Positions 7,901-63,906 of a stretch of DNA of 64,000 nt are shown one piece after another; the first letter of the stretch is position 1, and each line of letters opens with the position of its first letter. Under the pieces are notes generated by a model. It made no database searches and was not told the origin of the DNA. It worked only from the letters and a program-made list of their open reading frames with translations. The DNA comes from Polytrichum commune (Eukaryota; Streptophyta; Polytrichopsida; Polytrichales; Polytrichaceae): the NCBI GenBank assembly GCA_950295325.1, contig OX485803.1, forward strand, positions 65,487,554 to 65,551,553. The letters run 5' to 3'. The translations under genes were made by a program, and so were the position numbers.

Positions 7901-8475
7901 TAATTAGCTACTTCTTTTCTTTTCTTTTTATTCGATTCCCTTCCTGATTTTCTCACGATTCATTTGTAAGGTATCTATGATATATATATAGTTGATATAT
8001 AATTGATGTATGTAATTATATTTATATCTTATTACGATCATTCAAATTAGTTACGTAAATCTATATCAATTTTGATAGAATGATCACTATATTCGTTAAT
8101 TTGAGACTTTCTCTTGTCTTAAATTAATATATGGACCACAACAACATGGGTCTAATGTTTGGGTTGTCCTACCTAAACCATCTTGATATGAGTTCTTAAT
8201 TGGGTTCTTGATATGAACACCCGTTTCAAAGTATTTGCATCTTACAATATTCTCCAAGATATGTGTGATTTGATCCATATTCTTATATTTGTAACTCGTC
8301 TCAAAATGCTTAAAAAATATCCCCAATTAACAAATGTAGTGATAATGCCTCTTTTACACGTAACTTAAAGTGATTAAATAATTTGTATTATATAATAATA
8401 TTAAATAATTTGTAATATATAATCATTACTTGTAATAGAAACTCCCTCTCACTATATCCTAGTAACTGACCTCAG
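4990..8475 (-). other. Non-coding spacer of the retrotransposon between pol and the extra ORF
   Basis: No convincing coding frame on either strand. From about 5100 to 7900 the plus strand is rich in C and T, so the sense RNA would be rich in purines. Positions 7980-8460 are AT-rich with short TATA-like runs. A block at about 6850-7030 has several ACCGG/ACCGA motifs and a GGCCGGCCGC site and looks different in composition. The 8-mer CCATAGTC, frequent in the LTR, recurs here near 6228 and 7345. A spliced leader or intron for the downstream ORF would have to lie here, but I could not fix splice sites. Confidence 0.6.
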
Positions 8476-11400: not shown

Positions 11401-14070
11401 ATCCCGAGGTTGTGGTTCAGCAACCGTGGTAACATTATTAACTGGACAAGAATTCTGCCAACTTAAGATGGCATTATCAGAATCATCATCTTTCATAGAG
11501 ATAAAATATTCTCCTATCCCTACGGGATTATAGGCTCTCTGGTGTCTACCCACATTATGAATAGACTGAATTGGAGTATCATCTGACTCGGTCTCATATC
11601 CATCAGTTGTGAATTCAGTTCCCTCATCCTGAGCTTCTCCTTGATAACGGGTAGGAAACAAAGGTAAGACCATTTTATCTTTGCCTTTGCCTAATGTTAG
11701 GGTGCCTTTATCCCAATCTTCTTTGGCTTCTGCCACAATTAACCAAGGTCTCCCTAATATTCCAGGTATAGGTTGTATGGCATCAGTGGTTCGGAATACA
11801 ACAAAATCAATTTTGTATTCCCGGCCAGCGATTTGGACTGGTACTTGGGGTAATTGGCCTAAGGGTTTAGTACGAGTATGGTCCGCCATTTTGAGAATGA
11901 TTGAAGTAGGAACCATATTAGTGAGTCCTAATTCTTTCATTGTCTCTATACTCATAAGATTGACACTAGATCCGGTATCGACTTGAAATCCCGCTACCAT
12001 CACTCCATCAATTATGACATCCACTGCAGGTGCACCGGGGTCTTGACTGAGGGTTACGTCGTTAACTTCCACAACTTTGGCCCTCTTGCGGATCATTGCC
12101 GAACCGAGTGTGGTACGACATTGAGGCGCAATTGCCAAAAGTTGTCTCATAGTGATATGAGGGTGGAGGTTATCCAAGTCTTGCATAATATCATATTGTT
12201 GCAACCCCTTAGCTAGTTCCATGGTCCGAGGTTGCTTTGAACTTGACCTAGACTTTAAATTCCTCACATGGGGTATTTGATAGGGCATCGGTTTAGACTT
12301 GACTTCCGTGGGCCTACTTTGTGGGTTAACTGACGTAGGTGTCCTTTCCAAAATGGTGTAGGGTTTTGGAGGAACCGGCGGTGTTGGGAAAGATATAGGC
12401 ACTGGTTGAACCAATTCGATGCTTGGCAAGGTCGTAGGCATAACATCAGACTTTGGAATCGCGTTGGGTTCTATTATCAACTTATTTCTTGGATCATCTC
12501 CTCTTATGTTATCCCGTAATTCCTCGGCACTTGGCTCACTGCTATTTTCATCAATAATGGGATAAGGTTCAGGTGGACCTTTAGACCGTGTTGTTACAAC
12601 ATTGACATTTTGTGCCCTAGATGATGGGGTAGAAAAATGCTGAATGTGATTTACATTTCGAGCACCCTCTTCCTCATCCTCCGGATCTTGGATTCTCACT
12701 CGTTTTCCCTTTTTCCAATCTCTTTCATTAGGAGGGTAATCCTTCTTAGGATGGGGACACTCATCTGTGGGGTGTCCTGCTGTCTTGCAGTTGCCACACA
12801 AAGGAACATAATCCTGTGGTTTCTTAGGGTTTGGACAGTTGTTGGCGTAATGACCGAGTTCCTTACACCTATAACAAACAGGATATTTCCTCGAGTCATC
12901 GGGGTTTGAATCGAACCTCTGATAGTTTTGATTATATTGAGGAGGTCCGTTCCAATTGGAAGAATCATTTCGTTGATTCCAATTGGGACGTCCCTGAAAA
13001 CTCAAGGGTACTGGACGACGGTTAAAATTCCTTTTAGGATTATAACTGGCGTTAGGTCCTGGTCCATTCCGTTCTTGTTGCCAAGGACGAGATTGACTAC
13101 TATCGACCTGATTAACAACCTTCTGTTGTTTAAGGTTCCAACACTCTTGGACTGCATGATTTCCACCACAAAAGATACACTTGGTTCTAAACCCCTTTGG
13201 GGTAGGACACTCATTGGCAAGGTGTCCTTGACCTTTACAATTATGACACCACACGTTATGTCGCTCTTCTGTGGGTTGAGGTCTCTTAGGTCTGTTGTTG
13301 GCTACCTTAACTGACAATTCTGACAACTGTTTCGTCAGATTCCATATGGCATTATCATATTTATCACTCATGGGTTCTTGTTGAGGAGCCTTGTTAATGG
13401 CAGGTTGTGTATACAACTGTGCAGTTGGGTTTCGCACGTATGGTGCGTCAGTAACATAATATTGGTTATTCTCATTGATGGGAAAAGTTCCCGAGTGTGA
13501 GGGAATTGGATTATTGGAATAAGTGTTATCGGTATAAAGGACCAATTCATTCTCCAATCTACATTCCTCCCAAGTTTTTGCTCTGGCATATGCTTGGGCA
13601 TATGTAGCGGTGGCTCCCTCCTTGACATAGGTTCTCAACTCCATGGGATATAAACCACCTATGAATATACTCATAAGGAAATCATCTGGGATTTGGTGAT
13701 TTCCCATACGTTGCAAAATATCTTGCATCCTGCCATAATAGTTATCAACTCTCTCGTTGATGCCCATTCTAACAGTTCGCAATTTCTCTTTTAGACTCGT
13801 GGCAAAGCCTAAGGGTCTAAAGTGAGCCAGGAATGCAGTTTTCAATGCATTCCAGTTAGCAAATGCGGGTTGTCTCTGATACCATGCAAAGGCATCTTCT
13901 TGCAATGACGCAGCAAAAACTTCTTGAAATTTAGCAGCCGGGACATCATTAGCCTGGCATGTAATTTCAAACTTTGCCACATGAGTATCAGGATCTGATC
14001 CTGGTCTCCCGAGGAAATAAGGGATATGTACTATGTTATGAATCCGTGGGGCACCAGGTATATTAGCCAT
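8476..14070 (-). CDS. gag-pol: Gag-pol polyprotein of the Ty3/gypsy element, interrupted by one TGA
   Basis: A single frame encodes Gag, protease, reverse transcriptase, RNase H and integrase. Numbering is from the ATG at 14070, the first in-frame ATG; it begins MANIPGAPRI at the Gag core. The frame is open back to 14493 with a charged and then Pro-rich stretch but no ATG, so a non-ATG or spliced start is possible. Zinc knuckles lie at about residues 275, 298, 399 and 425; the second is C-x2-C-x3-H-x4-C. Protease has DTGSS at about 698. RT has the active site FLDD at about 1158. RNase H has D1307, E1349 and D1374. Integrase has an HHCC finger (C-x2-C near 1552) and D1584, D1646. The codon after D1646 is TGA at 9132-9130, where the family normally has Arg in SDRGTHF; CGA to TGA is a single C-to-T change. 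The frame continues unchanged to the catalytic Glu (D-35-E spacing), a WMGPY motif and the end at 8476, with no chromodomain. Confidence 0.93.
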
Positions 14071-14510
14071 TATAAATGGAGGTATTGGTGACGGTAAAGG
14101 TAGTGGTATAAAAGGTTGTATTAGTATTGGGGTTGGTAAGGGTGGAGGTGTTGAATAAGAAGGAAGTAAAGGGTGTTGAGGTGTCACTACTTGGGAACTA
14201 TCTGAAGTTGAACCAAAATAAAGTTGTTGAGGTTTAAGAGGTGATAATGTTTCCTCTTGACTTTTATTTTCTATAGGGTTTGGACTCGCTACCTTTGGTT
14301 CAGTGTCAAACTGTTCTTTTTGCAACTTAATGACAGACCTCAACCAACTCTTTCTTCTTTCAGCTTTCTTCTTCTGATAATCCCTAGCACGTGCACGATC
14401 CTCTCTAGCCTTGTCATTGGCTGCTTTTCTTACTGAGGCTGTTTGTGCGTGTGATCTTTCATGTGCAGTTTCCAGTATGGAAGTTGCATGTGATCATACG
14501 TAACTAGACC

Positions 14511-15056
14511 CTACGTCCTATTTTGCCTATTGTACCCAATCCGCCTTCTTCCATTCAAGAACAATTTTGCAAAATTTACAAAGTTTTTGCCTTGAAGTGA
14601 GGAATCGGAGAAATCGGGTATGTTGACACTTGAACAAGGATCGAAAGGTCCGTAATAAAAGCGAGCTTCATTGCTAGTGAAAAGCCCTCCGTTCCAACAA
14701 CCGTAACCAAACTTGTTGATTGGAAAGTTGTCGGCCTTATATTGGCTGTAAATAAGAAACAAAAATCTCAGGTCAACTCTCAACCTAGGATATCCTTTGT
14801 TAATAATGATTTCATTAAAACCCTCACCCTTATTCCAGATCTTATTCAATATCTTTTCTTGAAGGTGAAGGGGTAAGTTACGAAAGTTGGCTAAAAATCC
14901 CTTTGGGTAAATGGGGTGGTTTGGTCCTATGTGGATTCCAACTCCCCAGAATGATGCTTTATAAAAACGATATAAAGCCGTAAACAAATGGGGTCCTTGG
15001 TATAACTCACTCTCAAGGGTGCTCACCTCTTGTGAGTTAAGCTCCCATGGCCACAT
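14511..15056 (-). CDS. Small ORF B of the retrotransposon, unknown function
   Basis: A frame of about 181 residues from the ATG at 15056 (open from 15089, where a stop precedes it). It begins MWPWELNSQE and is rich in aromatic residues and Asn, with a basic tail (NGRRRIGYNRQNRT). It sits between ORF A and gag in another frame than both, with about 30 bp to ORF A and 15 bp to the stop that precedes the gag-pol frame. Tat/Ogre-type elements carry an extra ORF before gag, so this may be a remnant or part of such an ORF1, with a frameshift separating A and B. I do not recognise the fold. Confidence 0.55.
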   Translation of the reverse strand: MWPWELNSQEVSTLESELYQGPHLFTALYRFYKASFWGVGIHIGPNHPIYPKGFLANFRNLPLHLQEKILNKIWNKGEGFNEIIINKGYPRLRVDLRFLFLIYSQYKADNFPINKFGYGCWNGGLFTSNEARFYYGPFDPCSSVNIPDFSDSSLQGKNFVNFAKLFLNGRRRIGYNRQNRT

Positions 15057-15093
15057 TTTGGTAATGGACACATTAGTGTCAAAGATAATTCAC

Positions 15094-15477
15094 TCATAAG
15101 AAGTCAGCTTGTAACCCAATTGTACGGGTTAACACTTTTGACTTCCACCTTTCTACACTTTTAGTTTTAGACTTCAACTTTTTCACTTCACAATCCCTCG
15201 AGTAGTGTCCTAGACCTTTACAATTCCGACACACTATTTGGGGACGGGACTCTGTTTGACAAGCACTCTCAATTTGTTTCTTTTCAAATAACGAGTCATG
15301 TGTTGTTTCAAGATGACACTTACAGACTCGCTTGACAATTCTCTCAACGGCTTCCTCGAAGCCGACAAGATTTAACTCTCCCAAGGTACTCTCAGAAAGT
15401 CCAAAGGGTGTATATTTTAAAGGGTAATTTAATGAATTTCGATGACCTCTAGATTTCCATATCTTAGGTTCATCCAT
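15094..15477 (-). CDS. Small ORF A of the retrotransposon with a CCHC zinc knuckle
   Basis: 127 residues from a true ATG (MDEPKIWKSR), starting about 220 nt after the primer site, so it would be the first ORF on the genomic RNA. Near residue 84 it has CRNCKGLGHYSRDC, a perfect C-x2-C-x4-H-x4-C nucleocapsid-type knuckle, followed by a Lys-rich segment. It is in the same frame as gag-pol, but stop codons and ORF B separate them. It might bind RNA, as Gag knuckles do. It could be a duplicated nucleocapsid fragment or the front part of an ORF1. Confidence 0.6.
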   Translation of the reverse strand: MDEPKIWKSRGHRNSLNYPLKYTPFGLSESTLGELNLVGFEEAVERIVKRVCKCHLETTHDSLFEKKQIESACQTESRPQIVCRNCKGLGHYSRDCEVKKLKSKTKSVERWKSKVLTRTIGLQADFL

Positions 15478-15698
15478 AAAATAGACATTTGCTTAACTCC
15501 AGGCATTTGGGGTTTGAGATAATTGTGAATATCAATTATTACTTTAGGATCGTGGTAAAGTTTCAGAAATAGTTGACAACGTATTTCTTCACTTTTCTAG
15601 ATTTCCCAAAGTCTTAATTAAGATTCCTTATCCAAAATTCAAGCCTATTAGTATTTCCTAACCGACTTATCTACCTAGACTTAAATCGACCGAAGCCT
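15478..15698 (-). other. Untranslated leader of the retrotransposon
   Basis: About 220 nt between the primer site and ORF A. No coding signal. By analogy it should hold packaging signals; none can be identified by eye. Confidence 0.5.
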
Positions 15699-15716
15699 TC
15701 CCCGGCAGCGGCGCCA
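15699..15716 (-). other. Primer-binding site, tRNA-Asp type
   Basis: On the minus strand it reads TGGCGCCGCTGCCGGGGA, starting three bases after the 5' LTR end. This is the well-known plant gypsy primer site complementary to the 3' end of tRNA-Asp (usual form TGGCGCCGTTGCCGGGGA), with one difference. Confidence 0.9.
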
Positions 15717-17396
15717 AAATGTAGTTAGCTTTTTGGTTACAAACAAACCCAGGGAAACAATCAGGGAAGACTTAAAAGGTGATCCTTATATCATCTAGGT
15801 GTCTTAGACAAGGTTTGTTAGGTAAAACACAAGGTTATAACACTGCATTTCCATTTAGGTGTATCAATTAGTCTACGGGCAGGGGTAAAAACACCTAAAA
15901 GATCACTCCATAGCAGTGCATGCAAAGGTGACAATCTCTCTTCTCACTCTAAATTCCCAGTCAATGGTCTGGCAGTGAGTTCATTTTAATTGGACCAAGT
16001 GCGGTGCAAAAGCATAGGGCTCGCCATCGACCATAGTCATTTGTAAAAGTAACCCATTTTAGTCTTGCTTATCAAAGTCGAGGGCCCTTTGATATCGTCC
16101 ATAAACTGTCATTTAATTAATTCTTTTAATTGAACTTGAAACAGGCGGTGCAGTCTCCCTTGCAGGGTTATCAAAGTTCCTTAATTAATCTTTTCATCTT
16201 AAGTTGTACAGTCCGACCATAGTCTTTACCTGGTCTTGGCCAAGGCAATCGTAACTTCTTTTCTCATGACTATAGGTCAAAGACACTTATGCGCGTTACC
16301 ATATTCTCACACCACTCGTAAACTCATTTCATTGATTTAAAGTTCCAATTACATCTATTCAATCCTCAAGACAATCGGTTTAATTCCTTATGACAAACCG
16401 AAGCGAACAATCCAATGATTAAAGGAAACGAAAGTTCAACTTAATCTTAGTTCCTTTTAACTTTTATTAAAGAATTCAACCTTACCAGTATAGTAAGCGG
16501 CACGTCCTTCCGTCTTCTTCACTGTCGGTTGACCTTCCGTAGACAATGGACTCTTCGAGTTGTCCTTTCGACTTCCACCATAGACTTGAACAGTTTCTTC
16601 ATTTGCACTGAGAAGACCATAGCCTTATTCTTTATTCGGTTTAATTCGACCCGGTAATACAATGCTACGATTCCATAATCATGTCCGTATTACAAGGATA
16701 CCACTTGCTGTGCACAAATTGGTTTAAAGAATAAAACTACGTCGATGACAATGGATATGGTGTGCAGTCAATATTAGAGGCAATGTAGATATAGATAAAT
16801 GCAGGGAGAAAAAGCCTAGGGTCTCTTAATCATTTCGTGTACTCAAGCAAAGGAATGATAGACTAAGATATTTCTGTATTTCCAGTCATATGTATTCCAC
16901 GAATCGCTCCAAGATTAATCACAACTCTCAACTGGAGAGACACTTTCCTTATATTACTCAACGACCATAGTCTCATGATCGACTGTATCACAGTGATGGT
17001 AAGAAATTAATTCGTATCATAACATATTATGACCTCAGTTCGCATTCGCAGACCTTTGACTTTACTGCTTCATCAGTACCTAAAGTTAATTCCTGTAATG
17101 CTTGCTCTCCCAAACTAGAATCCTATAAACAATGATCATCAACAGTCTGTAGCGAGTTACAAATTATTCAACTAACCTACAAGACTACAAGAAAATCACC
17201 CATCCTTCAGATTGAACTTAGGCATTTTCTCTCAATTCACTACCTGAAGGCTGGAGAATTGCGACAGGTAATTAAGGGGAACTGCAAACACTAGGATCTC
17301 AACCAATTATACTTGCAGACCATAGTCAACTGTAAACACAATCACTCTCAAGGATCTATCGTCACGATTTAATAATACGACTTAATTCCCTGCTCT

Positions 17397-17409
17397 TTAT
17401 ATAAATAGA
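17397..17409 (-). promoter_or_regulatory. Candidate TATA box of the 5' LTR promoter
   Basis: The minus strand reads CTATTTATATAAA, the best TATA match in the LTR, about 690 bp from the outer LTR end, a usual U3 length. Transcription would then start near 17365. No second element was seen to confirm it. Confidence 0.45.
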
Positions 17410-17713
17410 CAATTCGTTCAGGTAATCAACCCCTGCAAAATTACCACACTCAGATCCCAAATTGAGACGATAGACTCGTCAGTACAGGTAATGGCCATCT
17501 CGAGAAATTGTCTTGCCATGAAAATATACAACCACATATACATAATAGGAAAGCTGACACAATTATCAAATAACTTCAGTTTACCGCTTAGCATTAAAAC
17601 TCGAGATTCACAACAGATTAAGTCCCAAGCAAACTGATACTCACGCTTGACTCCGAAGTTAGACAATTGCCTACGACCCCAGTAAAAAATCTTCTGGGAG
17701 CCACTGTACATAT

Positions 17714-17743
17714 AACAACAACAACAACAACAACAACAACAAC
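17714..17743. repeat. CAA trinucleotide microsatellite in the 5' LTR
   Basis: The same tract as in the other LTR, longer by two units. Confidence 0.9.
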
Positions 17744-20700
17744 GCATGCGCATCCCACGCATGTGATTGCAAAATAAGATTTAAAAATCAGATTCACCAA
17801 AAGATCCACACACAAGACAGAAAGTTCAATAATAATCCCTTACAAGCTCTCGGCCTCTCGCCTACAAGACACACACCTAATGAATGGCCTCCTCCTCTTT
17901 CTCAACCTACAAAAAGTAGTTATAACCATCTTTGTCTCTTCAAACCGGGCCATAACCTTCCCATGGCCTAGTTTCACATATCACAAGACATTAGCTATTT
18001 CACACCACAAGGTTTCATATTTTCGAGTTCAAGAAGTGACTATTCACACTTAAACTTCATTAATGCTACCAAAAATCAAAAAATTGTACCACATCTGCCC
18101 TAACCTCAAAAGATCAGATTTGAAGTCTAAGCCAACAAATTCACAATCACAAGCCAAATGCTACTCAAGGCCATTGAACCTCACAAGTTGATAATGTGGC
18201 CTAACCTCAAAAGATCAGAGTTGAAGTCTAAGCCAACAAATTCACAATCACAAGCCAAATGCTACCTCAGGCCATTGAACCTCACAAGTTGATAATCTGG
18301 CCTAACCTCAAAAGATCAGAGTTGAAGTCCAAGCCAACAAATTCACAATCACAAGCCAAATGCTACTGAAGGCCATTGAACCTCACAAGTTGATAATCTG
18401 GCCTAACCTCAAAAGATTATATTTGAAGTCTAAGTCAACAAATTCACAATCACAAGCCAAATGCTACTCAAGGCCATTGAACCTCACAAGTTGATAATGT
18501 GGCCTAACCTCAAAAGATCATATTTGAAGTCTAAGCCAACAAATTCATAATCACAAGCCAAATGCTACTCAAGGCCATTGAACCTCACAAGTTGATAATG
18601 TGGCCTAACCTCAAAAGATCAGATTTGAAGTCTAAGCCAACAAATTCACAATCACAAGCCAAATGCTACTTAAGGCCATTGAACCTCACAAGTTGATAAT
18701 CTGGCCTAACCTCAAAAGATCAGAGTTGAAGTCCAAGCCAGCAAATTCACAATCACAAGCCAAATGCTACTCAAGGCCATTGAACCTCACAAGTTGATAA
18801 TCTGGCCTAACCTCAAAAGATCAGAGTTCAAGTCTAAGCCAGCAAATTCACAATCACAAGCCAAATGCTACTCAAGGCCATTGAACCTCACAAGTTGATA
18901 ATCTGGCCTAACCTCAAAAGATCAGATTTGAAGTGTAAGCCAACAAATTCACAATCACAAGCCAAATGCTACTCAAGGCCATTGAACCTCACAAGTTGAT
19001 AATGTGGCCTAACCTCAAAAGATCAGAGTTGAAGTCTAAGCCAACAAATTCACAATCACAAGCCAAATGCTACTGAAGGCCATTGAACCTCACAAGTTGA
19101 TAATCTGGCCTAACCTCAAAAGATCATATTTGAAGTCTAAGCCAGCAAATTCACAATCACAAGCCAAATGCTACTCAAGGCCATTGAACCTCACAAGTTG
19201 ATAATCTGGCCTAACCTCAAAAGATCAGATTTGAAGTGTAAGCCAACAAATTCACAATCACAAGCCAAATGCTACTCAAGGCCATTGAACCTCACAAGTT
19301 GATAATGTGGCCTAACCTCAAAAGATCAGAGTTGAAGTCTAAGCCAACAAATTCACAATCACAAGCCAAATGCTACTGAAGGCCATTGAACCTCACAAGT
19401 TGATAATCTGGCCTAACCTCAAAAGATCATATTTGAAGTCTAAGCCAACAAATTCACAATCACAAGCCAAATGCTACTCAAGGCCATTGAACCTCACAAG
19501 TTGATAATGTGGCCTAACCTCAAAAGATCATATTTGAAGTCTAAGCCAACAAATTCACAATCACAAGCCAAATGCTACTGAAGGCCATTGAACCTCACAA
19601 GTTGATAATCTGGCCTAACCTCAAAAGATCATATTTGAAGTCTAAGCCAACAAATTCACAATCACAAGCCAAATGCTACTTAAGGCCATTGAACCTCACA
19701 AGTTGATAATCTGGCCTAACCTCAAAAGATCAGAGTTGAAGTCCAAGCCAGCAAATTCACAATCACAAGCCAAATGCTACTCAAGGCCATTGAACCTCAC
19801 AAGTTGATAATCTGGCCTAACCTCAAAAGATCAGAGTTCAAGTCTAAGCCAGCAAATTCACAATCACAAGCCAAATGCTACTCAAGGCCATTGAACCTCA
19901 CAAGTTGATAATCTGGCCTAACCTCAAAAGATCAGATTTGAAGTGTAAGCCAACAAATTCACAATCACAAGCCAAATGCTACTCAAGGCCATTGAACCTC
20001 ACAAGTTGATAATGTGGCCTAACCTCAAAAGATCAGAGTTGAAGTCTAAGCCAACAAATTCACAATCACAAGCCAAATGCTACTCAAGGCCATTGAACCT
20101 CACAAGTTGATAATCTGGCCTAACCTCAAAAGATCATATTTGAAGTCTAAGCCAACAAATTCACAATCACAAGCCAAATGCTACTCAAGGCCATTGAACC
20201 TCACAAGTTGATAATGTGGCGTAACCTCAAAAGATCATATGTGAAGTCTAAGCCAACAAATTCACAATCACAAGCCAAATGCTACTCAAGGCCATTGAAC
20301 CTCACAAGTTGATAATGTGGCCTAACCTCAAAAGATCAGAGTTGAAGTCTAAGCCAACAAATTCACAATCACAAGCCAAATGCTACTTCAGGCCATTGAA
20401 CCTCACAAGTTGATAATCTGGCCTAACCTCAAAAGATCAGAGTTGAAGTCCAAGCCAACAAATTCACAATCACAAGCCAAATGCTACTTCAGGCCATTGA
20501 ACCTCACAAGTTGATAATCTGGCCTAACCTCAAAAGATCAGAGTTCAAGTCCAAGCCAACAAATTCACAATCACAAGCCAAATGCTACTGAAGGCCATTG
20601 AACCTCACAAGTTGATAATCTGGCCTAACCTCAAAAGATTATATTTGAAGTCTAAGTCAACAAATTCACAATCACAAGCCAAATGCTACTCAAGGCCATT

Positions 20701-50592: not shown

Positions 50593-50855
50593 GAGCAAAC
50601 AAAATATGAAGATAGGCCAAGAGACGCACCTTTAGTGACGCTTGCATGAATATGAGCTTGCAACCATTTGTGGTTGATATATAGTTACCCAAGTCATTGC
50701 ATTTGTTAAGGGTCTAATGTGAAAAGGGAGAAAGGTGAGGTGTCTATGATTGGTAGTATATTTGGTTTGATTGCCTTGTATTAAAGGGGCGAATCAAAAC
50801 TCAAGTAGAGGATCCGGGCTAGACCACCATATGATGAACCCCTCATCCGATACAT
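50593..50855. other. Unique sequence between satellite and first transposon repeats
   Basis: The satellite stops within a monomer after CTACTCAAG. The next 260 bp have no ORF or repeat that I can see. If the MULE-like element to the right was inserted into the satellite, its left end should be at or near 50593, but a terminal inverted repeat partner lies outside the window. Confidence 0.4.
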
Positions 50856-51440
50856 GGCCCCCTATAACTAAGACCTTGAACTAACTAGCCGAGAGCCTAA
50901 ACAAACATAACCTTGAAGCTTTCACATTCATCCAAAATATGGCCCCCTATAACTAAGACCTTCACTAACTAGCCGGGAGCCTAAACAAACATGACCTCTA
51001 AGCTTTCACATTGATCCAAAATATGGCCCCATATAACTAAGACCTTAAACTAACTAGCCGAGAGCCTAAACTAGCCGAACTTGAAGGCTTTCACATTCAT
51101 CCAAAATCTGGCCCCTCTAACTAAGACTCTACACTAACTAGCCGAGAGCCTAAACTAACAGAACTTGAAGGCTTTCACATTCATCCAAAATATGGCCCCC
51201 CTAACTAAGACCTTAGACTACCTAGCCGAGAGCCTAAACTAACAGAACATGAAGGCTTTCACATTCATCCAAAATCTGGCCCCTCTAACTAAGGCTCTAC
51301 ACTAACTAGCCGAGAGCCTACCCAACCAAACATGTAACCACCCACATTGAAACAATATCTGGTCCCAGAGCCCAAGGGATTACCCTCTCGGAGCCGAGAG
51401 CCTACCCAACAAAAAATCTAACCTCCCCCCTTCATACAAA
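50856..51440. repeat. Left outer tandem repeats, about 84 bp, six to seven degenerate copies
   Basis: Units begin GGCCCC(C)TATAACTAAGACC and contain ACTAGCCGAGAGCCTAAAC and TTTCACATTCATCCAAAAT. Starts are near 50856, 50941, 51024, 51110, 51194, 51277 and a diverged one at 51355. The unit shares the CCGAGAG core with the other repeat families of this region. The end (51385-51440) has CCCTCTCGGAGCCGAGAGCC. Confidence 0.85.
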
Positions 51441-52372
51441 ATGTGGCCACTTAGATTCCGAGAGGCTAGGCCTTTCAAGGGTAATGGACCAGATTTCGCA
51501 TTGATTTGAATGTTTGAGTTAGCACTTAGTTTCCGAGAGGCTAGGCCTTTCAAGGCTAATGGACCAGATTTCGCATTGAATTGAATGTTTGAGTTAGCAC
51601 TTAGATTCCGAGAGGCCAGGATTTTCAAGGGTCTTGGACCAGATTTCGCATTGTTTTGAATGTTTGGGTTAGCACTTAGATTCCGAGAGGCTAGGCATTC
51701 AAGGGTCTTGGACCAGATTTTCGCTTTGAATTGTATGTTTGAGTTAGCACTTAGATTCCGAGAGGCTAGGCCTTTCAAGGGTCATGGACCAGATTTCGCA
51801 TTGATTTGTATGTTTGAGTTAGCACTTAGATTCCGAGAGGCTAGGCCCTTTCAAGGGACATGGACTAGATTTCGCATTGATTTGTATGTTTGAGTTAGCA
51901 CTTAGATTCCGAGAGGCTAGGCCTTTCAAGGGTCTTGGACCAGATTTTCGCATTGTTTTGTATGTTTGAGTTAGCACTTAGATTTCGAGAGGCTAGGCAC
52001 TCAAGGGTAATGGACCAGATTTTGACTTTCTTGTGCATGCTTGAGTTAGCACTTAGATTCCGAGAGGCTAGGCCTTTCAAAGGTAATGGACCAGATTTCG
52101 CATTGTTTTGAATGTTTGAGTTAGCACTTAGATTCCGAGAGGCTAGGCACTCAAGGGTCTTGGACCAGATTTTGACTTTGTTGTGTATGCTTGAGTTAGA
52201 ACTTAGATTCCGAGAGGCTAGGCCTTTCAAGGGTAATAGACCAGATTTTGACTTTGTTGTGTATGCTTGAGTTAGCACTTAGATTCCGAGAGGCTAGGCA
52301 CTCAAGGGTCTTGGACCAGATTTCGCATTGTTTTGAATGTTTGAGTTAGCACTTAGATTCCGAGAGGCTAGC
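51441..52372 (+). repeat. Left inner tandem array, 74-75 bp, 13 copies, inverted relative to the right array
   Basis: Units contain CTTAGATTCCGAGAGGCTAG, then CTTTCAAGGG, GGACCAGATTT and GAGTTAGCA. Two subtypes differ in the part reading TTTCGCATTG or TTTTGACTTTG. The array is the reverse complement of the one at 56785-59030 and lies just beyond the 3' end of the ParB/methyltransferase-like gene. Long open frames with a 25-residue period across it are artefacts of the 75-bp period. Confidence 0.93.
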
Positions 52373-52507
52373 CTCAAACACCAACATAAGACGACCAAGG
52401 AGATATATGGGATTGCAAAAGGAAAATTGAAATTCATAAAACACTTTTATAAAAACTTTAGCAAACGCAATATATATGAGATGGGGTTAGAGATGCACGA
52501 ATCGTAG
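52373..52507 (-). other. 3' flank of the ParB/methyltransferase-like gene
   Basis: Unique AT-rich sequence between the last exon and the left inner array. It probably holds the 3' UTR and polyadenylation site; no clear signal was identified. Confidence 0.4.
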
Positions 52508-55500
52508 TCAACCACTATGACTACTATGTCTATTACTTTTCTCGCCCTGCTCTGCCTCTATGTCTAGGAAATCCAATACTAGTTTGTTGTAAGGCCGGAT
52601 ACAACTAGGAGGTGGGGATGGTGCTTCGGCCAAACGATGGGCAAGCTCTGAAGCATAAGGAGGGAGCTCGAACGTCGCCGAAGGCGTTGCAAAAATCTCC
52701 GCATTAAGAAAGCGGATGGGGCTTTTAATTTGAACTCTGTACATAGATGAAAAAAAAAAACATGAGCACATGTATCTATGTCAAACACTTGAAGATACAA
52801 ATGAAAACAAGGTAGAATCAACGAATGAACTTACTCACAGAGCAAATCGAAATTGCGCTTGGCCATCTTTCGAGGAGGAGGAGCAAAAACGGAGCCTCGT
52901 TGAGGGGCGGCGGGTTGAGAGGTCTGTTCTTGATCAGGCTCGCGAAGGGGGAGGAGGATGGACTTGAAGACATCAATGTCGGATTCAAGCGCCACAATAT
53001 GGCGTTGAATGGAGCGGCATGCTATTATGGAACCTCCTAAACAAACAAAATGCGAAGGGATTAGCATTGGGAAATGAATAAGCAACCGATTACAAATGAA
53101 AACAAAAAATCCAAAAGGAAAGAAATGAGAAAAATTAGAGAAGAAGAACGAACCAACACCACACTGCCAATCCAATATAATGTCATCATTGTCTGTGAGG
53201 GCGGAGAAAAAGATCGAAAAGAATTCCGGACGCTTTTCACGGGCGCCTCTCCAAGGCACCCCGTCGACCCTCACGGATTGGTTTTTTAAATCGGTGAAGC
53301 TGTTGAGCCAACCATCTCGTTTGAGATTGTAGCCCATGTCCATGAAGTCCGACGTGCGGACATTCAAAACGAACCGGTTCCGCACAAGTACCTTAATGAA
53401 AAATTTCCGAGTCTGCACAAATTGTGAAAGCTAGAGTTAGGAAAACAAGAACAAAACAAAAAGACTATGAATGAAAATGGATGAAGGCCAAGAAGAAGTA
53501 CCAGTTCAGACGGATTAGAGGGAGATTGAAGATCGAGGTCGCTCATGCCGAACCAGTCCTCGGCAACATAGAAATCCTCTGTGTGGGCCCAGTTATGAAT
53601 TGATCTCGAAACCTCTGGATCGGCAGCATGCGCAAAGACGAGGACGCCATCGTCATGAAGGTTGGCATTCGTGAATGCAAACAGAACCTCGAAGTAAGTG
53701 GCTGAGCGGATGTTCCAGTGAGGAACATCTGAGGATGAGGAAGTGATGCCCGGAACACGTAGGTTCTCGGGCACATCTGCAAACAGGAGATCAATGCCCG
53801 TGTGAACCTTATGCTTGGTGTTTGGACGAGTACAACCCGCTCCAACCTAAAAGGTCCAAATGCAAAGAAAGTCAAAAAATAAGAAAATGATGAAATACAT
53901 TGAATGAAAGAATAAAGCAATGCACACAAACCTTTGTTAGGAAGTATTGGATGCGTCGGTAGGCCGGAGGTGGAACTTTGGTCTTCATGAGATCCTCAAC
54001 GAGCTCCCTCATGTCCACATTCTCAATCAAAGAATGGCAAGATGACATGTCGGAGGAAGTTGCCGACGTATCAGGTGCAACAGCCTTCCGCTTGCGAGGC
54101 ACAGATGGAATGGTTACACCGCTATGAGAAGGAGCAACTACCAGATTGGCGAGGGCGGCAGATGGAGTGGCGGTGGGACTTCCAACCACGGTGGTGGCTG
54201 AAGGAACATTGCGTTGAACGGAGGCCTTGGCATTAGAACGTGAGGAAACTTGAGAAGAGGCATGGGCGAGAGCCTTCTTACCTCTGCCTCTACCCTTGAA
54301 GGGCGCAACATCATTCTCAACCGATGGAGGAGCGGGAGTAGGTTCATCTGGCTCCTCATCCAATTCAATGACGTCGGGGCCGGAGTTCACAAGGCTGCCG
54401 TAAAGGGCTTCTTCTTCATCGGGCACAAATGCACGAGAGCAATCCAAGTACCAACCACATTCCTTCAAGTGCGAGGGTGGAAACTTTGCAACTTGCATGG
54501 CCGTATAGACACAAAGATTGGAGTGGACATCGATCCACTCCAAAAGGAAAGCGGGCAAGGACGAAGGAGGCAAAGCATTCTTCACAAAGAGCTCGCGGTG
54601 AATGTACCTAGAAAATGGAAAACATAGAGTAAGAAAATTGCCGTGGAAAGGAAACGAAAGCGATGAAAAAAATTAAAGGAAAAGAGTACCGGTAAGCAAC
54701 GCGTTTGATGGCGATGGGGCCTTCGTCGAACTCGAAGAGGTCAAGGCCTTTACTAAATGTTAAATCGGCCTTGTCCTCAAAATACACCCGGAAAGCCTTG
54801 TCCCACAAAATGAGCCTCCAATGCTCAACATAATTGGACGGGTGTAAAATCTCCGTGGAATTCCAATCAATGTCCACGGACAACTCGTTCTCAAACGATG
54901 CAATCTCAGCCTCAACGCCCTTCTCCAACTATGTAAAGAGAGACCAACAGTTAGATATGGAAATGAGAGAAACTAGCAAACAAAAAGACACAAAAGATGA
55001 AGATGTACCTGTGCCCAAAAAGAAGCTTTGTTAAGCCAGTCGTTAAGGACTTTCTCACGGAGAGGAAGAGAAGAGGGGAATTGATTTTCCATTTTGACCT
55101 TGGCGGGAGAATTCCACCACCGAAGCCACTTGGCTTTGAAACAGGCATCGACATGGGTGGTTGCCATCTTTTGAAGTTTTTCTATCGTCATATCGGGGTA
55201 CATGAAGGTGGAAAAATGACGGTCAATCTGCAACATATGAGAGTGTAAGAAAGATGAAACTAGAATGGATGAAAGATGAAGTTGAAAGCCAAAAGTAAAA
55301 CAAATCGGAGGCGCACCTCGTAGAAGAAGTCTTCGCCATTATCCTTGTGGGCGACGGAAATGAACTTCTCGAAATTTCGAGTCCGAATACTCTTGATGAG
55401 TTTCTCTTGCGCTTTGGTCATAGTATCCCAAATTTCGGTAGCTGACCTGCGGGATTCGGGTGTATTCTCCCCGTACAACCTTGCTGCAGTGTCGGCTGCG

Positions 55501-58500
55501 TTCGAGATCTCTCTCTAAAACACACAAAGAGAAGTGAAAATGAATGACAGAAATGAAGAGAAGAAAGGCATAAGCCCATATATGTCATTGTCTTTGGAGG
55601 GTAAGATGGCAAGTATGAACACATGCTTGTGGGCTATCAAAGCAAAAGGAAGGGGAGGAAGAATCACCTTATACAAGAATTTGACGAATATGTCCAAGGT
55701 AAGAGGATACCAAGTTGGAGTTTTTAGCATTTTGGCCTCGCAAGTCTTGTAGTCTTGGGGAGAAATGAGGTCCTTGAACTCCTCAAGTTTCATCTTCCCA
55801 AATGTTCGAATGCGGAGGAGCTTGGCGGGAAGGTTGTCCTTGACATGGTCGTGCTCCGTGGACCTACTAGGAATAAGTAAGCGAGAAACAAAAGATGAAA
55901 AATTTTGAGAAAGGAAAACAAACAATGAGAACCCAAACAAAAACAAACTTACCAGTTGATGTCATTCATTGCATTAAGGAAGACGGCAGCACAGTTTCTC
56001 AGGTCGACAACAATGCAGTCCACGGAGATGTGCCAATCTTTGTCCATGGAATGGTACTTGTTAATGTGTCTAAGCCAAGCCGTCAAGCGATGATTCCCCT
56101 CCCACATGAAAAACATCTTGCCAACAAATTGAGAGAGGTCGGAATCCTTCTCGAGCATGGAATCAAACTCATCACTAGACTCCTGCCATAGTGAACTCCA
56201 GGAGGCTCGAATGTCATCCGAAACTAGAAGCACCTCATCAAGGTTGTTGTAGGGAGAGACATACATCGCACGGTCACCGTCACGGTAACCCATGACAAAT
56301 TCGTTTTGCAGCCGAGCAACATCGACCTCGCTGATGGGGCGAACAAGAGGAAGACATTGCAAGCGGCACAATGGAATAGAGAAACGTGACTTAGCAAGAG
56401 GTTTGATGCGAACCCTATGAATCACACCGATAGAGTCTTCTTTTTGGGATCTCCGAATCTCGAGCTCAGTCTCCTCCGCAGTAGACTCATCAAGAGGACG
56501 CACGGGGTCAGATTGATGAGGTGAATCAATCTACAAGGGTGGAAACAAAGATATGAGATTAAGCCCAAAATATATTGAAAGCCAAGGTACCGGAAGTGCT
56601 TGGAAACAAAAGGAAGAGTTCACATAGAGAACACCTTTCCCGGTTGGACATCGACAAGTGGATCAACTTCCACCTCGGCAGGCTCCAATTGAAGAACATG
56701 GGCATCTGTGGATGGATCCTCGGAGAGAATGAGATCCATAGCTTGAGACTCCTACACAAAAAGAAAAGTTAGACATTACCCTTGATTGCCTAACCTCTCG
56801 GAATCTAAGTGCTAACTCAAGCATCCACAACAAAGTCAAAATCTGGTCCAAGACCCTTGAAAGGCCTAGCCTCTCGGAATCTAAGTGCTAACTCAAGCAT
56901 ACACAACAAAGTCAAAATCTGGTCCAAGACCCTTGAGTGCCTAGCCTCTCGGAATCTAAATGCTAACTCAAGCATACACAACAAAGTCAAAATCTGGTCC
57001 AAGACCCTTGAGTCTGGTCCAAGACCCTTGAGTGCCTAGCCTCTCGGAATCTAAGTGCTAACTCAAGCATACACAACAAAGTCAAAATCTGGTCCAAGAC
57101 CCTTGAGTGCATAGCCTCTCGGAATCTAAGTGCTAACTCAAACATTCAAAACAATGCGAAATCTGGCCCATTACCCTTGAGTGCCTAGCCTCTCGGAATC
57201 TAAGTGGTCACTCAAACATTCAAATCAATGCGAAAATTTGGTCCAAGACCCTTGAAAGGCCTAGCCTCTCGGAATCTAAGTGCTAACTCAAACATTCAAA
57301 ACAATGCGAAATCTGGTCCAAGACCCTTGAGTGCATAGCCTCTCGGAATCTAAGTGCTAACTCAAGCATACACAACAAAGTCAAAATCTGGTCCAAGACC
57401 CTTGAAAGGCCTAGCCTCTCGGAATCAAAGTGATAACTCAAACATTCAAATCAACGCGAAATCTGGTCCAAGACCCTTGAATGCCTAGCCTCTCGGAATC
57501 TAAGTGCTAACTCAAACATACAAAACAATGCGAAATCTGGTCCATTACCCTTGAAAGGCTTAGCCTCTCGGAATCTAAGTGCTAACTCAAGCATACACAA
57601 CAAAGTCAAAATCTGGTCCATTACCCTTGAGTGCCTAGGCTCTCGGAATCTAAGTGCTAACTCAAACATTCAAAACAATGCGAAATCTGGTCCATTACCC
57701 TTGAAAGGCCTAGCCTCTCGGAATCTAAGTGCTCACTCAAGCATACACAACAAAGTCAAAATCTGGTCCATTACCCTTGAGTGCCTAGCCTCTCGGAATC
57801 TAAGTGGTCACTCAAACATTCAAATCAATGCGAAAATCTAGTCCAAGACCCTTGAAAGGCCTAGCCTCTCGGAATCTAAGTGCTAACTCAAACATTCAAA
57901 ACAATGCGAAATCTGGTCCATTACCCTTGAGTGCCTAGCCTCTCGGAATCTAAGTGCTAACTCAAGCATACACAACAAAGTCAAAATCTGGTCCAAGACC
58001 CTTGAGTGCCTAGCCTCTCGGAATCTAAGTGCTAACTCAAACATTCCAAAGAATGCGAAATCTGGTCCAAGACCCTTGAAAGGCCTAGCCTCTCGGAATA
58101 TAAGTGCTTACTCAAACATTCAAAACAATGCGAAATCTGGTCCATTACCCTTGAGTGCCTAGCCTCTCGGAATCTAAGTGCTAACTCAAGCATACACAAC
58201 AAAGTCAAAATCTGGTCCAAGACCCTTGAGTGCCTAGCCTCTCGGAATCTAAGTGCTAACTCAAACATTCCAAAGAATGCGAAATCTGGTCCAAGACCCT
58301 TGAAAGGCCTAGCCTCTCGGAATATAAGTGCTTACTCAAACATTCAAAACAATGCGAAATCTGGTCCATTACCCTTGAGTGCCTAGCCTCTCGGAATCTA
58401 AGTGCTAACTCAAGCATACACAACAAAGTCAAAATCTGGTCCAAGACCCTTGAGTGCCTAGCCTCTCGGAATCTAAGTGCTAACTCAAACATTCAAAACA

Positions 58501-59963
58501 ATGCAAAATCTGGCCCATTACCCTTGAGTGCCTAGCCTCTCGGAATCAAATTGCTAACTCAAACATTCGAAACAATGCGAAATCTGGTCCTTCAGAAAAC
58601 ATACCACCTGGTGCCGAGAGCCCCACAACCTTAACATCGGGTCCCTCTCTACCTTACCCCTCAACCTTACCCTCTCGGAGCCGAGCCGAGAGCTCATTGG
58701 CTCCTCCAAAATCTAGTCCTAGTCATCGTCAAGCTTTCCCCCTCGGAGCATTCCACAAAATGACAAAATCTAAGTGCTAACTCAAGCATACACAACAAAG
58801 TCAAAATCTGGTCCATTACCCTTGAAAGGCCTAGCTCTCGGAATCTAAGTGGTAACCTAAACATTCAAAACAATGCGAAATCTGGTCCAAGACCCTTGAG
58901 TGCCTAGCCTCTCGGAATCTAAGTGCTAACTCAAGCATAAACAACAAAGTCAAAATCTGGTCCATTACCCTTGCAAGGCCTAGCTCTCGGAATCTAAGTG
59001 CTAACTCAAACATTCAAATCAACGCGAAATCTGGTCCTTCAGAAAACATACCACCTGGTGCCGAGAGCCCCACAACCATGAACTCGACGCCTCCACACAA
59101 CCTCAACATCGGGTCCCTCTCTACCTTACCCCCTCAACCTTACCCTCTCGGAGCCGAGCCAAGAGCTCATTGGCTCCTCCAAAATCTAGTCCTAGTCATC
59201 GTCAAGCTTACCCCCTCGGAGCATTCCACAAAATGACAAAATCTGGTCCCCTTCAACTAATGCATTTCCCTCTCAAACTCCAACAAACCACACATTGAAC
59301 TACCAAAGCATATATTCATTCATCCATGAAGCTTAAGAACCTTTTATCAAAATCCTCCAACCTCATTCTCTCTCAATCCATTGCGCACACTAAAATGTGC
59401 CGCGAATTTAACCTTGACTCGTATATCCATTCTAACATTCGACCGTGACTGAGGGTTCCTGGAGGTACCCTCTCGGTGCCGAGACCACCGTTTGAACATA
59501 TATTCAATCTTTCTGATATGTGTCCGTTATCCTAACCATACAATCATTCCATTGTCGTGTTTGCTTGAAATTGAATCCTCAAATGCCATTTTTCATATAA
59601 CTTAAACGACAATCTTACTATAAGAATGGAATCATCTCTTGTCTCCTCCTGATATCCGCTTTGATTTGAACTGTTGGGTTGCTCGCTTTCTTCCATAGAT
59701 GCCGCGGGGGATTCACTATCCTCCCGGTCTTCCTCTATCGGCTGCAGATTCAATTGCCGTTTCGAAGATCCTCTCTTGCTCTCTCCACCTGTGTTTTGCA
59801 CGTCTGATGGGGTTCCTCTACCCTCTATGTACGATTCCTCCTTCTTCTTCAGTTCTCTCCGTCTCCTCTGTTTCAAATTGCTGAAACTCAATCCTCCCTT
59901 TCGCTTCTTCCGCTTCTTTCCTATATCTATTGTGGAATCTGTATTGTGCTCTGGTTCCTTCAT
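52508..59963 (-). CDS. 12-exon gene: basic N-terminus, ParB/Srx-like domain and permuted DNA-methyltransferase-like domain (1200 residues)
   Basis: Exons in sense order: 59963-59619, 56751-56635, 56530-55953, 55863-55668, 55514-55317, 55227-55009, 54928-54690, 54607-53932, 53846-53502, 53412-53154, 53036-52835, 52736-52508. All introns are GT-AG, phases agree throughout and the sum is 3603 nt. The first intron is 2867 bp and holds tandem repeats; the others are 80-153 bp. Residues 16-41 carry KKRKKRK and KQRRRRELKKK (nuclear localisation). Residues about 205-330 look like a ParB/sulfiredoxin domain, with WEGNHRLTAW near 300. PRKRK is near 801 and a SUMO-interaction-like VIELDEE near 710. The C-terminal part (857-1085) matches permuted amino-methyltransferases: LLFADVPE (motif IV position, canonical D/N-PP-Y/F/W lost), LVFAHAADP, EKRPEFF, then ILDWQCGVGG (SAM-binding motif I) and IVALESD. 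Bacterial and phage DNA methylases often have the same ParB-methylase order. If exon 1 is wrong, translation would start at 56739 (1081 residues). The role is inferred only. Confidence 0.75.
56785..58590 (-). repeat. Right inner tandem array, 74-75 bp, 24 copies
   Basis: Units contain CTCTCGGAATCTAAGTGCTAA and AATCTGGTCC, with subtypes CAAGCATACACAACAAAG and CAAACATTCAAAACAATG and alternative ends AAGACCCTTGAGTGCCTAG or ATTACCCTTGAAAGGCCTAG. It is the reverse complement of the left array at 51441-52372. A three-unit block of 224 bp is repeated exactly at about 58035 and 58259. Confidence 0.95.
58587..58770 (-). repeat. Right outer repeat, first copy
   Basis: This unit interrupts the inner array. 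It reads CTTCAGAAAACATACCACC, GGTGCCGAGAGCCCC, CTCGGAGCCGAGCCGAGAGC and GCATTCCACAAAATGACAAA. A second, slightly longer copy is at 59035-59245. CTCGG/CCGAG can pair as a short hairpin. Confidence 0.85.
58771..59034 (-). repeat. Right inner array, three further 75-bp units between the two outer repeats
   Basis: The same family as 56785-58590, with CTCTCGGAATCTAAGTG near 58836, 58911 and 58984; two of the units have lost a base in the TAGCCTCTCGG box. Confidence 0.85.
59035..59245 (-). repeat. Right outer repeat, second copy
   Basis: A direct repeat of 58587-58770 with an extra stretch after CACAACC (ATGAACTCGACGCCTCCACA). It ends with the same GCATTCCACAAAATGACAAAATCTGG. Confidence 0.85.
59246..59618 (-). 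other. Unique part of the large first intron
   Basis: No ORF of note. It contains one more CCCTCTCGGTGCCGAG box near 59468, about 150 bp from the proposed splice donor. Confidence 0.4.
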
Positions 59964-60220: not shown

Positions 60221-63200
60221 ATGGCCGAACTTCGTTCCCATGGCATCGGGGTCCCCATTCTTTTCCCCATTGATGCACGAGGTATTGCTGTTGTCTCCGA
60301 GCTTCATCTTAGCATTAGGTTCTCTTTCAAACCCAATACAATATGGGTAGAGCGTGAGATCTTCCATCCTGATACTGGATTGCTCATTCATACCTTCCAT
60401 GAGACCTCCAAGGTATCCGACAATGGCATTGTAGTTTGGGAGTTTGCCGCGGGAAAGTATAGGGTATGTGGCTGGCCAGATTCTCAGATCGGAGTGTCGA
60501 CAGAAATCCTTACTCCTCTTCGATCATCCACTGCTGCCTTTAGCACCCCTCCCGTAATAAGTGTCAAGACCGAGCCTGGTCTAGACAACGTTATAGACTT
60601 GTCTGATTTTTCGAGTGAAGATGGACCAGTTCAGCATGAAGATGAACCAGTTGAGCATGAAGATGAACCAGTTCAGCATGAAGATGTAGCAGTTCATGAT
60701 TCTCCTCTTTTGTTTCCCTCTCCTGCCTATGTAACGCCCTCTCCTTCTCTCTCTGTGCCTTCACCTACTTCAATACCCTCTACGTCCAAGCCTCCTCAAC
60801 CTATTGTTCAATGTCTTCGTCGTCTTGGTTCTATGCCAGGTAGTAAGAACGTCCTCAAGAAATTAGATTACGATAAACTACAAATCCAATTAGTTAATCA
60901 CCTTCCCCCTCGTTTTGATGGTACCCAGTTATTTGTCCTCCCTGCAGCAGAAGTCTCTTCCTCTCAAACCAGGGCCAAGTCCTTGGACGGCATGGACAAG
61001 CAATATGATGGCCATGTTTGGACTAAGACTCAAACCACCAACATTACAAACGACGTTGGCCTTGCCTTTCGTTCCTCTGCCTGTGTTGGCCATCTCCAAT
61101 GCCAAAACCCTAGTTGTGATTACCTTCAACGACCCCATCGTGCATCTAAGGTCAACGACACGGAATTTGAAGGTTTCATTAAAGATCCTTTCCCTCTCTC
61201 TGGCATTGTGCCATCCGGATCTACTCTTGTTTGCAGGATCTGCAAACAACCTCCCAAATGCATTGCACTATGCGATGCCAAAATCTTCTACGTCCATGGG
61301 AAGGAGTCCTCCCAAAGAGCCTGCATTCATATCGGTACTCATCAACATCCAGTCAAGGTTGGAGACTGCAGAGACAGCCGTAAGAGTATCAATGCACTTC
61401 TCGAGGAGCACGTTGACCGTTCTCCTCAAGCCACGTACAACAAGATCGTCCTCGAAGCCAGCAAGGACATTGTAGGTGATTTCCTCCTTTCTGGTAATAA
61501 TGACACACAACGTCTCCTCTCCTTGAAAGAGCTCGAACCTGTGTTTGAGAGTTGTAGAGAGTTGAATTCCCCCAACCTTCGCTCTAAGGTTACCTCTTTC
61601 AAATATTTGCGGAGGTTCGGGGTTATGGATGGCATCGCAAAGCTCCGGGGCGTTAGCAATTGGGCTTACGTCCAACGGAACCAATTCCCAGGACAAGGTG
61701 ACGATACCGACAAGGTGTTCGTCTTCAAGATGTCGGAGGTGGGTCCTGGAAGTGGTGTGGATTTGGTTCGTCGGATGCAACCGGGTGGGGACCTCGAGAA
61801 TGCCTGGATGATGTCCGATCACGTCAAGCGGGTCAAAGGGTGGACCACCATGGCCGCTCATGTTTACGATGGGACTTATCAACGGGTCATGACCATTTCA
61901 TGTTGTGATTTCCAATCCGAGGATAAGGATGCCCAAGTTCTCTTATGGCAGAACCTCAACCACGTCATGGCCCGTCACGGTATCCCACATCCAAACTTTA
62001 TAGGCTTCATGGCCGACAGTGCCCAAGCCAATTGGAACGCTGTTCGCATTGTGTATGGTTCGGGGGATCCCAAAGTTCCCATGGAGGGTCGTGAGCGCAC
62101 TTGTTTTTTTCATTGGAAACAATCGCTCGAAAAGCATACAAAATCGTATATAAAGCATGACTTACAAGACCAACATAGACACCTTTGCCTTCAATATCGG
62201 AATGCTTCCTCTATGCAAGAGGCGGAGACTAGGTACCTAGCTATCAAGGCTTGGTGGGCGTCATCGAATTGTACGAGTGAGGACGGTCTCAAGCATCTTC
62301 AGCTCTGGCTTGCTTTCTGGCACTTCCGCTACCTTCAATGGGGTGGTTTCATGGAACTGGTACATCTCCTTCATGATTCATTTTTGGTTCTTCATGGTTT
62401 CGGTTTCTTCTCTCTGTGCCTATTCTAACACTTCATTTCTCCAATCAGGAAAAGGTTTTAACCCAAGACCAGTTGGCCGAGATGCCGTCTTGCAATCTTG
62501 CGGAATCCGTCCACAACAAGTGGCTTCAAGCCTCCGGCAACAAGGGTGGAGATCTATACGTGGCTACGGTGGACGACTACATTCGGGCCTTCTTACAAGT
62601 TGTTGCATATTACCAGTTCCTTAAAGGTGGAATTGGCGGAGACGGTCCAAGCAAAGAAGAACTCAAGCTCAGGGGTGCTCAACGTCGAGCTCAGCGTACT
62701 GGCGACCCCACAATGTTGCAGAAGGTCTTGCTTGACATGCCCGGTGGGGAAGAGTTTTGCACTCGTGATCCACACCTTGAGGGCGCCGAGGTGTTTGGAT
62801 CGCAGAAACGAAGACCCGACACTCCAATTGGTGATGATGGTGAAACCCACCGTCCGGATACCGTGAACTTCTCTCGCCCTCCCCCCGGTAAGCGAGTCAC
62901 TCGCTCTCAACCTGAAACACTGCCTACTATCATTGAGGAGTCTTCCCCCTCTGTACAAGAGGTTCAAGTACCTTCACCTGCAGGACTTGGTTTCCAGCGT
63001 GTCACCGCCGTGCAAGAAACCAAAGTAGATGTCTCTCTTTGGCATATTGCACGCATACCCTATACCTCTAGGAAGTCTTGTTGGGCTAATCATGCGGGCA
63101 CAAAGAAGAAGTGCACCGCAAGAATCGTCACCAATAACAAGAGCGTCCCTGCGTCGACCTACACCGGTATGTGGCATCACTACAAACTCCAGTCTATGAA

Positions 63201-63906
63201 GCGCACTGACTTCGTCTTTTGTCCAAACGAAATCGAGCGTTGCGTCAAGGGCCCTCGTCGGAAATGGGTCATGCCGTTCTCTGCTGATGACCAGAAGCCA
63301 CCTATTCCCCCAATCTGGCCCGTGAAGATTGGTACCAACCTCACCCGCTCGGAGATCTTTGCGCTTGAGAACGCAAGTTTTCAACTCCCACCAAAGGAGC
63401 GCATCACACCGACTCGACTCTTCACCAACTCTGCGACCCCGCTGGATATGTCTCGAATCCGTGTTCCAGAAAACCCCGACTTCATCCCTACCACAAGACT
63501 GTCCAAGCTTGTTCGGCGATCCAGCAGCGCACCTTCGGCAAAGCAGAGGCAGATGGTGGCCTCTGCTGAAGCTATGCATGCAACTGTTCTGAAGTTAACT
63601 ATGATCCCTCAACCGGGATTTGGTTGCATTATCACACTGTAGTCCAAATCAGAACCCCAACCACCCATCTACCAAGTGACAGTGAGTTCTCTTCCAAAGT
63701 GCAACTACGCCTACTTCTTGGATATGATTTCCAAGTTCGGCCGCAAACGAAATTTTTATATGAATTGTAAGCATCTGTATTACATCTTCGTCAAGGTTTC
63801 TAATTTGGATGCGGAAGTGAATTTGTTCATACACGCCCCGACATTTAGTTTCAATGAGGTCAAACTCATCATGGAGGGAGGTCTCTTGACTCAATCTACT
63901 TCCTAG
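60221..63906 (+). CDS. MULE-type transposase gene, one intron, interrupted by an in-frame TAG
   Basis: Exon 1 is 60221-62359 and exon 2 is 62449-63906, joined by an 89-bp phase-0 GT-AG intron (CTG|GTACAT, CCAATCAG|GAA). The ATG at 60221 opens MAELRSHG. Around residues 115-129 a SUMO-type VKTEP is followed by VIDLSD, then three 7-residue acidic repeats (PVQHEDE). A zinc-finger-like region at about 290-376 has C-x4-C (CQNPSC) and HIGTHQHP, as at the front of many MULE transposases. The DDE core has YDGTY (D550), FMADS (D599) and CFFHWKQSL. A second Cys-rich part lies near 924. The frame meets TAG at 63640-63642 (codon 1111) and then stays open to 63906, where NCKHLYYIF is the back half of a SWIM finger; the front half reads CNY, lacking the second Cys. 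The stop removes the SWIM finger, so this copy may make a truncated protein. The family is likely MULE; the exact subfamily is not known. Confidence 0.8.
60625..60687 (+). repeat. Three 21-bp repeats inside the transposase gene
   Basis: CCAGTTCAGCATGAAGATGAA and two near copies encode the acidic PVQHEDE heptapeptide three times, directly after the VIDLSD motif. Confidence 0.85.
62360..62448 (+). other. Intron of the transposase gene
   Basis: 89 bp, GT...AG, T-rich, with a CTAAC branch-like site near 62425. The reading frames on the two sides join without shift, which is the main support. Confidence 0.85.

Follow-up and report, generated by a model that had tools for sequence, protein, structure and literature searches.

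The moss Polytrichum commune carries a gene of bacterial or phage-like domain composition next to a transposase-like gene in a 64,000-nucleotide stretch of its genome, here called the window (contig OX485803.1 of assembly GCA_950295325.1, positions 65,487,554 to 65,551,553). The gene lies on the minus strand at 59963-52505, and its 12 exons assemble into a protein of 1199 amino acids (aa) that joins a ParB/sulfiredoxin-like domain to a C-terminal domain resembling amino-methyltransferases. It is arranged head to head with the transposase-like gene, with 257 bases between the two start codons. The gene probably belongs to a mobile element, and we lean slightly towards a fuller reading that makes it an accessory gene in a DNA transposon whose transposase is MULE-like, its product combining a ParB domain that holds DNA with a modification dependent on S-adenosylmethionine (AdoMet).

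The exons of the ParB–methyltransferase-like gene, all on the minus strand, are as follows.

59619 to 59963, minus strand: exon 1 (putative), with the ATG, a basic KKRKKRK stretch (possible nuclear localisation signal) and a GTAAGA donor
56635 to 56751, minus strand: exon 2, in frame, acceptor TGTGTAG and donor AAG|GTGTTC, with an internal ATG as alternative start
55953 to 56530, minus strand: exon 3, ParB/sulfiredoxin-fold domain with GxxR (GNHR) Box II
55866-55668, 55514-55317, 55227-55009, 54928-54690 and 54607-53932, minus strand: exons 4-8, splice-consistent frames
53502 to 53846, minus strand: exon 9, presumed catalytic half of the methyltransferase, with DLLFADVPENL at the place of motif IV
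53412-53154 and 53036-52839, minus strand: exons 10-11, with motif X (EKRPEFF), motif I (ILDWQCGVGG) and motif II (IVALESD)
52505 to 52734, minus strand: exon 12 and stop, with an in-frame acceptor

The splice junctions were picked manually to fit the reading frame and the splice signals, and they give a single frame that stays open across all 12 exons, with GT..AG introns throughout. Introns 2-11 measure 80-153 bp and have 28-40% GC, the exons 46-54%. For the end of exon 3 there is independent backing, since 43 of 120 aligned homologous open reading frames (ORFs) finish with ND[IVL]N[WRC] where the ORF of the window enters its intron. The intron between exons 1 and 2, which is 2867 bp long and made up mostly of tandem repeats, also keeps the frame; exon 1 and this 2.9-kb intron are drawn from splice signals alone, and exon 2 could supply the start codon. 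Some doubt attaches to the last intron, because read-through from exon 11 would stop at a TAA at 52833-52831. Exons 4-8 separate the two domains by about 510 residues, the final part being of low complexity by eye, and a Pfam scan of residues 347-724 came back empty at E<=10. Searched at full length, the spliced protein had no homolog at E<=0.01 in 7993 scored candidates; exon-sized queries succeeded. Rfam gave no match. The original prediction, made from the letters of the sequence, had described such a 12-exon fusion standing divergently beside a transposase. The gene could indeed be assembled, the motifs it quoted lie in exons 3 and 10-11, the homology of exon 3 goes beyond chance, and the divergent neighbour is an ORF with many homologs of its own.

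Exon 3 carries IPLCRLQCLPLVRP and WEGNHRLTAW. In a set of 5.8 billion proteins clustered at 90% identity, it has 183 homologs at E<=0.1 (best 1.1e-113), with a median pairwise identity of 62% over 6818 pairs. The structure model built from their alignment reached a predicted local distance difference test score (pLDDT) of 84.6, and ParB and sulfiredoxin structures ranked first when this model was searched with Foldseek and VIA, where fold families absent from the VIA listing are not counted as excluded. The GNHR of WEGNHRLTAW corresponds to GxxR, given as the ParB Box II motif in excerpts of PMC12704722, and it is conserved in the family (G in 107 of 110 and R in 94 of 107 aligned members having a residue there). 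Judging from the model and the fold searches, exon 3 almost certainly has the predicted ParB fold. The single-sequence fold, with a pLDDT of only 42.2, was of no use. At the sequence level, the single exon matched nothing in Pfam, PHROGs, NCBIfam or the PDB sequences, and its alignment profile (A1) matched no PDB sequence. When 121 family members were scanned, two weakly matched the ParB-like phrog_1033 (0.073) and four DUF6551 (0.012), while unrelated families matched as many members or more. Translated searches (tblastn) of phages returned four matches at E 5 to 7, none annotated as ParB; scans of viral and GTDB contigs gave pattern matches, but tblastn confirmed no relative among them. A helix-turn-helix, a C-terminal dimerisation domain or a ParA partner did not turn up in the general scans, none of which was aimed at them.

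In four collections, searches with exons 10-11 hit the AdoMet-binding end of amino-methyltransferases. The matches include the adenine-specific DNA methyltransferase 5hfj/5hek in the PDB (E 0.02), phrog_18293 in PHROGs (E 0.0028) and CcrM (E 0.0077), and tblastn against phages gave 35 records at E<=10 (best 0.01). Among the 20 phage records listed, some of them duplicates, 17 are annotated as methylase or methyltransferase, two as hypothetical and one is unannotated. Pfam gave no match to these exons, and the exact reversed sequence, used as a control, found nothing in PHROGs, NCBIfam or PDB. Motifs X, I and II, which make up the AdoMet-binding part of the N6-adenine/N4-cytosine amino-DNA-methyltransferases with motif order IV-X-I, are all present. 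Compared with a profile built from six phage methyltransferases, the C-terminal half scored 29.6 bits, a value reached by 0 of 2000 shuffles, and hhalign aligned the whole fragment with 90% probability over 57 columns; the test of this half is not independent, because the phage enzymes had been selected for matching it. The N-terminal half had no role in that choice and is therefore a fair test: it scored -0.8 bits against the same profile, 405 of 2000 shuffles did as well, and hhalign gave 0.6%.

Motif IV, which has the pattern (D/N/S)PP(Y/F/W), belongs to this N-terminal half. In an alignment with five phage methyltransferases, as well as by eye and in a weak hhalign match, the DVPE of DLLFADVPENL in the window copy falls on DPPY, where the phage rows read DPPY, DLPF and DLPY. 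Given this DVPE and the half that scores at shuffle level, the domain is named methyltransferase-like here, and methylation is unproven. On these sequence comparisons the C-terminal domain is very probably related to methyltransferases, while active methylation is doubtful, DVPE being the chief argument against it. The permuted amino-methyltransferase fold that had been predicted thus stands for its AdoMet-binding half but not for its catalytic half.

The neighbouring gene runs on the plus strand in two exons.

60221 to 62359, plus strand: transposase-like exon 1, with a Cys/His cluster, D (YDGT), D (MADSAQ) and CxxH (CFFH)
62449 to 63642, plus strand: transposase-like exon 2, containing CNLAESVHNKW

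These exons join, after the acceptor TCCAATCAG, into a frame of 1110 aa that is open to a TAG. The end of exon 1 was placed at a GT donor, and homologs diverge there, past GGFMEL. This exon has 59 homologs at E<=0.01, with identity down to 39%. In the alignment of 44 of them with the window sequence, a conserved Cys/His cluster is followed by D (37 of 39), D (31 of 32) and then C and H (29 of 29 each, counting rows that have a residue there); the third acidic residue of the transposase core was seen by eye only. The order of these motifs, together with CNLAESVHNKW, resembles the pattern of MULE transposases: as in MuDR, D...D...CxxH is accompanied by a Cys/His-rich N-terminal region. Unlike those transposases, the neighbour has no Pfam match. 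For 45 members, 12 families were listed at E<=1; the MULE model PF10551 was absent from these and did not appear for the two exons of the window either, and the alignment profile (A2) found only two PDB matches, at E 1.4 and 1.8. A 21-bp tandem repeat at 60616-60696, within the gene, encodes repeated QHEDEP-like units.

Three tandem arrays, detected with Tandem Repeats Finder (TRF), lie in and beside the ParB–methyltransferase-like gene.

50843 to 51320: 84-bp tandem array, with the CCGAGAG motif common to arrays A and B
51448 to 52371: 75-bp tandem array A, downstream of the gene
56788 to 59037: 75-bp tandem array B (several overlapping TRF rows), within intron 1

Arrays A and B are inverted copies of each other, with arms of up to 398 nt at 95% identity, and they bracket exons 2-12. 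Of the 54 occurrences of the motif CTCTCGG/CCGAGAG in the window, 52 fall in 50843-59963, and these are not independent because 47 of the 52 sit within the three arrays. Three of those outside the arrays lie past array B, in 59038-59963. The 84-bp and 75-bp units share the short motif alone; an alignment of their whole consensus sequences was matched by 121 of 500 shuffles. The original prediction of surroundings made up of the same repeats holds for exons 2-12, which the 75-bp arrays enclose in opposite orientation, but not for the transposase, which is not flanked within the window. A 101-bp satellite fills half of the window (18093-50593, 32.5 kb, about 322 copies by TRF). Its membership in the element was not supported, since 19 of 500 shuffles aligned as well or better with the 75-bp unit, a borderline result, and 344 of 500 did so with the 84-bp unit. 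The word ATNTGGYC occurs 296 times in the satellite and 27 times in array B, and a link between satellite and element through this word is possible.

Fusions of ParB and methylase domains are established in phages and bacteria (excerpts of PMC12704722 and PMC5512222). As described there, they share with the moss protein a ParB fold with GxxR joined to an N6/N4-type methyltransferase; the moss gene differs in having about 500 residues between the domains, 12 exons and no clear ParB match at the sequence level. In excerpts of PMC12477816 (Dinatale et al., 2025, citing Iyer 2011 and Petroll 2025), ParB-methyltransferase proteins of brown, green and red algae are put forward as possibly forming a class of accessory proteins of transposons. 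As an example, the excerpts describe Sola1-1_Ec32 of Ectocarpus, with an accessory protein of 1104 aa carrying ParB and an N4/N6 DNA methyltransferase. The moss gene agrees with that description in its two-domain architecture, its similar size (1199 aa) and its position on the strand opposite the neighbouring transposase. Both domains occur in one protein, the methyltransferase being recognised by its AdoMet half only and the transposase by its motifs only. The two differ, so far as the description goes, in the transposase, which is Sola-1 in Ectocarpus and MULE-like here, and in motif IV, which is degenerate here. The earlier view that no plant transposon accessory protein of this type had been described holds only in part, since those excerpts already present the algal class. 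In the open-access literature, covered by titles and abstract openings, with most subscription journals outside this scope, no other report was recognised of a gene of this type next to a MULE transposase or from a land plant. What is new here is the MULE-like neighbour, the large alignable family, the inverted 75-bp arrays around exons 2-12 and the degenerate motif IV.

Membership in a mobile element is plausible because the homologs are many and divergent, the transposase stands head to head with the gene, and Ectocarpus offers a precedent. Several results weigh on the other side. Terminal inverted repeats were not identified in the window, the 25 repeat pairs listed out of 308 being all array pairs; four flank pieces compared with the window matched themselves and otherwise gave only hits of about 25 bits, and the right end of the element may lie outside the window. 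No contig common to the two families was seen when 58 contigs with transposase homologs and 119 with ParB homologs were compared by size (17 and 24 of them, respectively, at least 50 kb); this result is compatible with linkage, because the comparison was confined to the longest contigs, with ORFs of other sizes filtered out and 120 of the 183 ParB matches listed. For the methylation step, DVPE in place of DPPY in exon 9 counts against the proposal as well. The predicted place in a mobile element is thus kept as probable on its homologs, neighbour and precedent, but falls short of proof, no terminal repeats having been identified and no second linked pair seen.

Two separate, adjoining elements would account for the missing common contig, with exons 2-12 forming a unit of their own between the inverted 75-bp arrays (51448-52371 and 56788-59037) and exon 1 being spurious. 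The arrays flank these exons and not the transposase, and exon 1 has no independent support, but start codons only 257 bases apart, the opposite-strand gene described for the Ectocarpus element and the three CTCTCGG/CCGAGAG motifs beyond array B all make this arrangement unlikely. A family of host genes that came from bacteria or viruses, was multiplied and lies by chance in repeat-rich DNA beside a transposase would explain the strong conservation of exon 3 and its end, and no second linked gene pair was seen elsewhere among the contigs compared; that explanation is decidedly improbable in view of the very many divergent homologs, 183 even after clustering at 90% identity, and of the transposon precedent that is described with the same layout. 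A dead methyltransferase is a serious possibility, somewhat short of even: the AdoMet half would be kept, motif IV would have decayed to DVPE, and the protein would bind DNA or cofactor only. The alignment of DVPE on DPPY, the shuffle-level N-terminal half and the intact motifs X-I-II all fit such a loss, whereas the open frame through 12 exons and the description of the algal proteins as predicted N4/N6 enzymes speak for function. It is compatible with a transposon accessory gene and concerns the last step alone.

As an accessory protein of the transposon, the product would bind nucleotide through the GxxR pocket of its ParB/sulfiredoxin-fold domain and may use that nucleotide to hold DNA, as other ParB-fold proteins do. 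The most obvious DNA target would be, speculatively, the tandem arrays of the element itself with their CTCTCGG/CCGAGAG motifs. The C-terminal domain would bind AdoMet through motifs X-I-II and, with a working motif IV, could methylate adenine at N6 or cytosine at N4 in the element, marking or protecting its DNA in transposition or silencing; should this copy have lost the function of motif IV, the domain would be a binding module only. An improbable extension is that the inverted 75-bp arrays serve as a parS-like cluster on which the ParB domain loads, and that the methyltransferase tethered to it gives the element a base modification of bacterial type, so that the element controls its own silencing or copying.

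Elsewhere in the window, a long terminal repeat retrotransposon of at least 18 kb (1-18094) directly adjoins the 101-bp satellite. Its repeats (1-2277 and 15813-18094) are 99.65% identical, with one mismatch and two gaps, and therefore point to a recent insertion. The gag-pol frame (14493-9130, minus strand) matches reverse transcriptase, RNase H and integrase, and an integrase-like frame follows beyond its stop (9129-8476). Downstream of pol, an ORF of 896 aa (2305-4995, minus strand) represents an extra gene with no significant Pfam match, and upstream of gag there are two ORFs (192 and 132 aa, 14511-15492), the second with a CCHC zinc knuckle.

The moss gene supports ParB-methyltransferase proteins as a recurrent class of accessory proteins in eukaryotic transposons, previously a remark on algae in the excerpted account, and adds to it a large family that can be aligned, a structural check on the ParB domain and candidate targets on the DNA. 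An active protein of this kind would be a source of N6-methyladenine (6mA) or N4-methylcytosine (4mC) in eukaryotes that is tied to a mobile element, and would allow a direct test of a transposon writing its own epigenetic mark.

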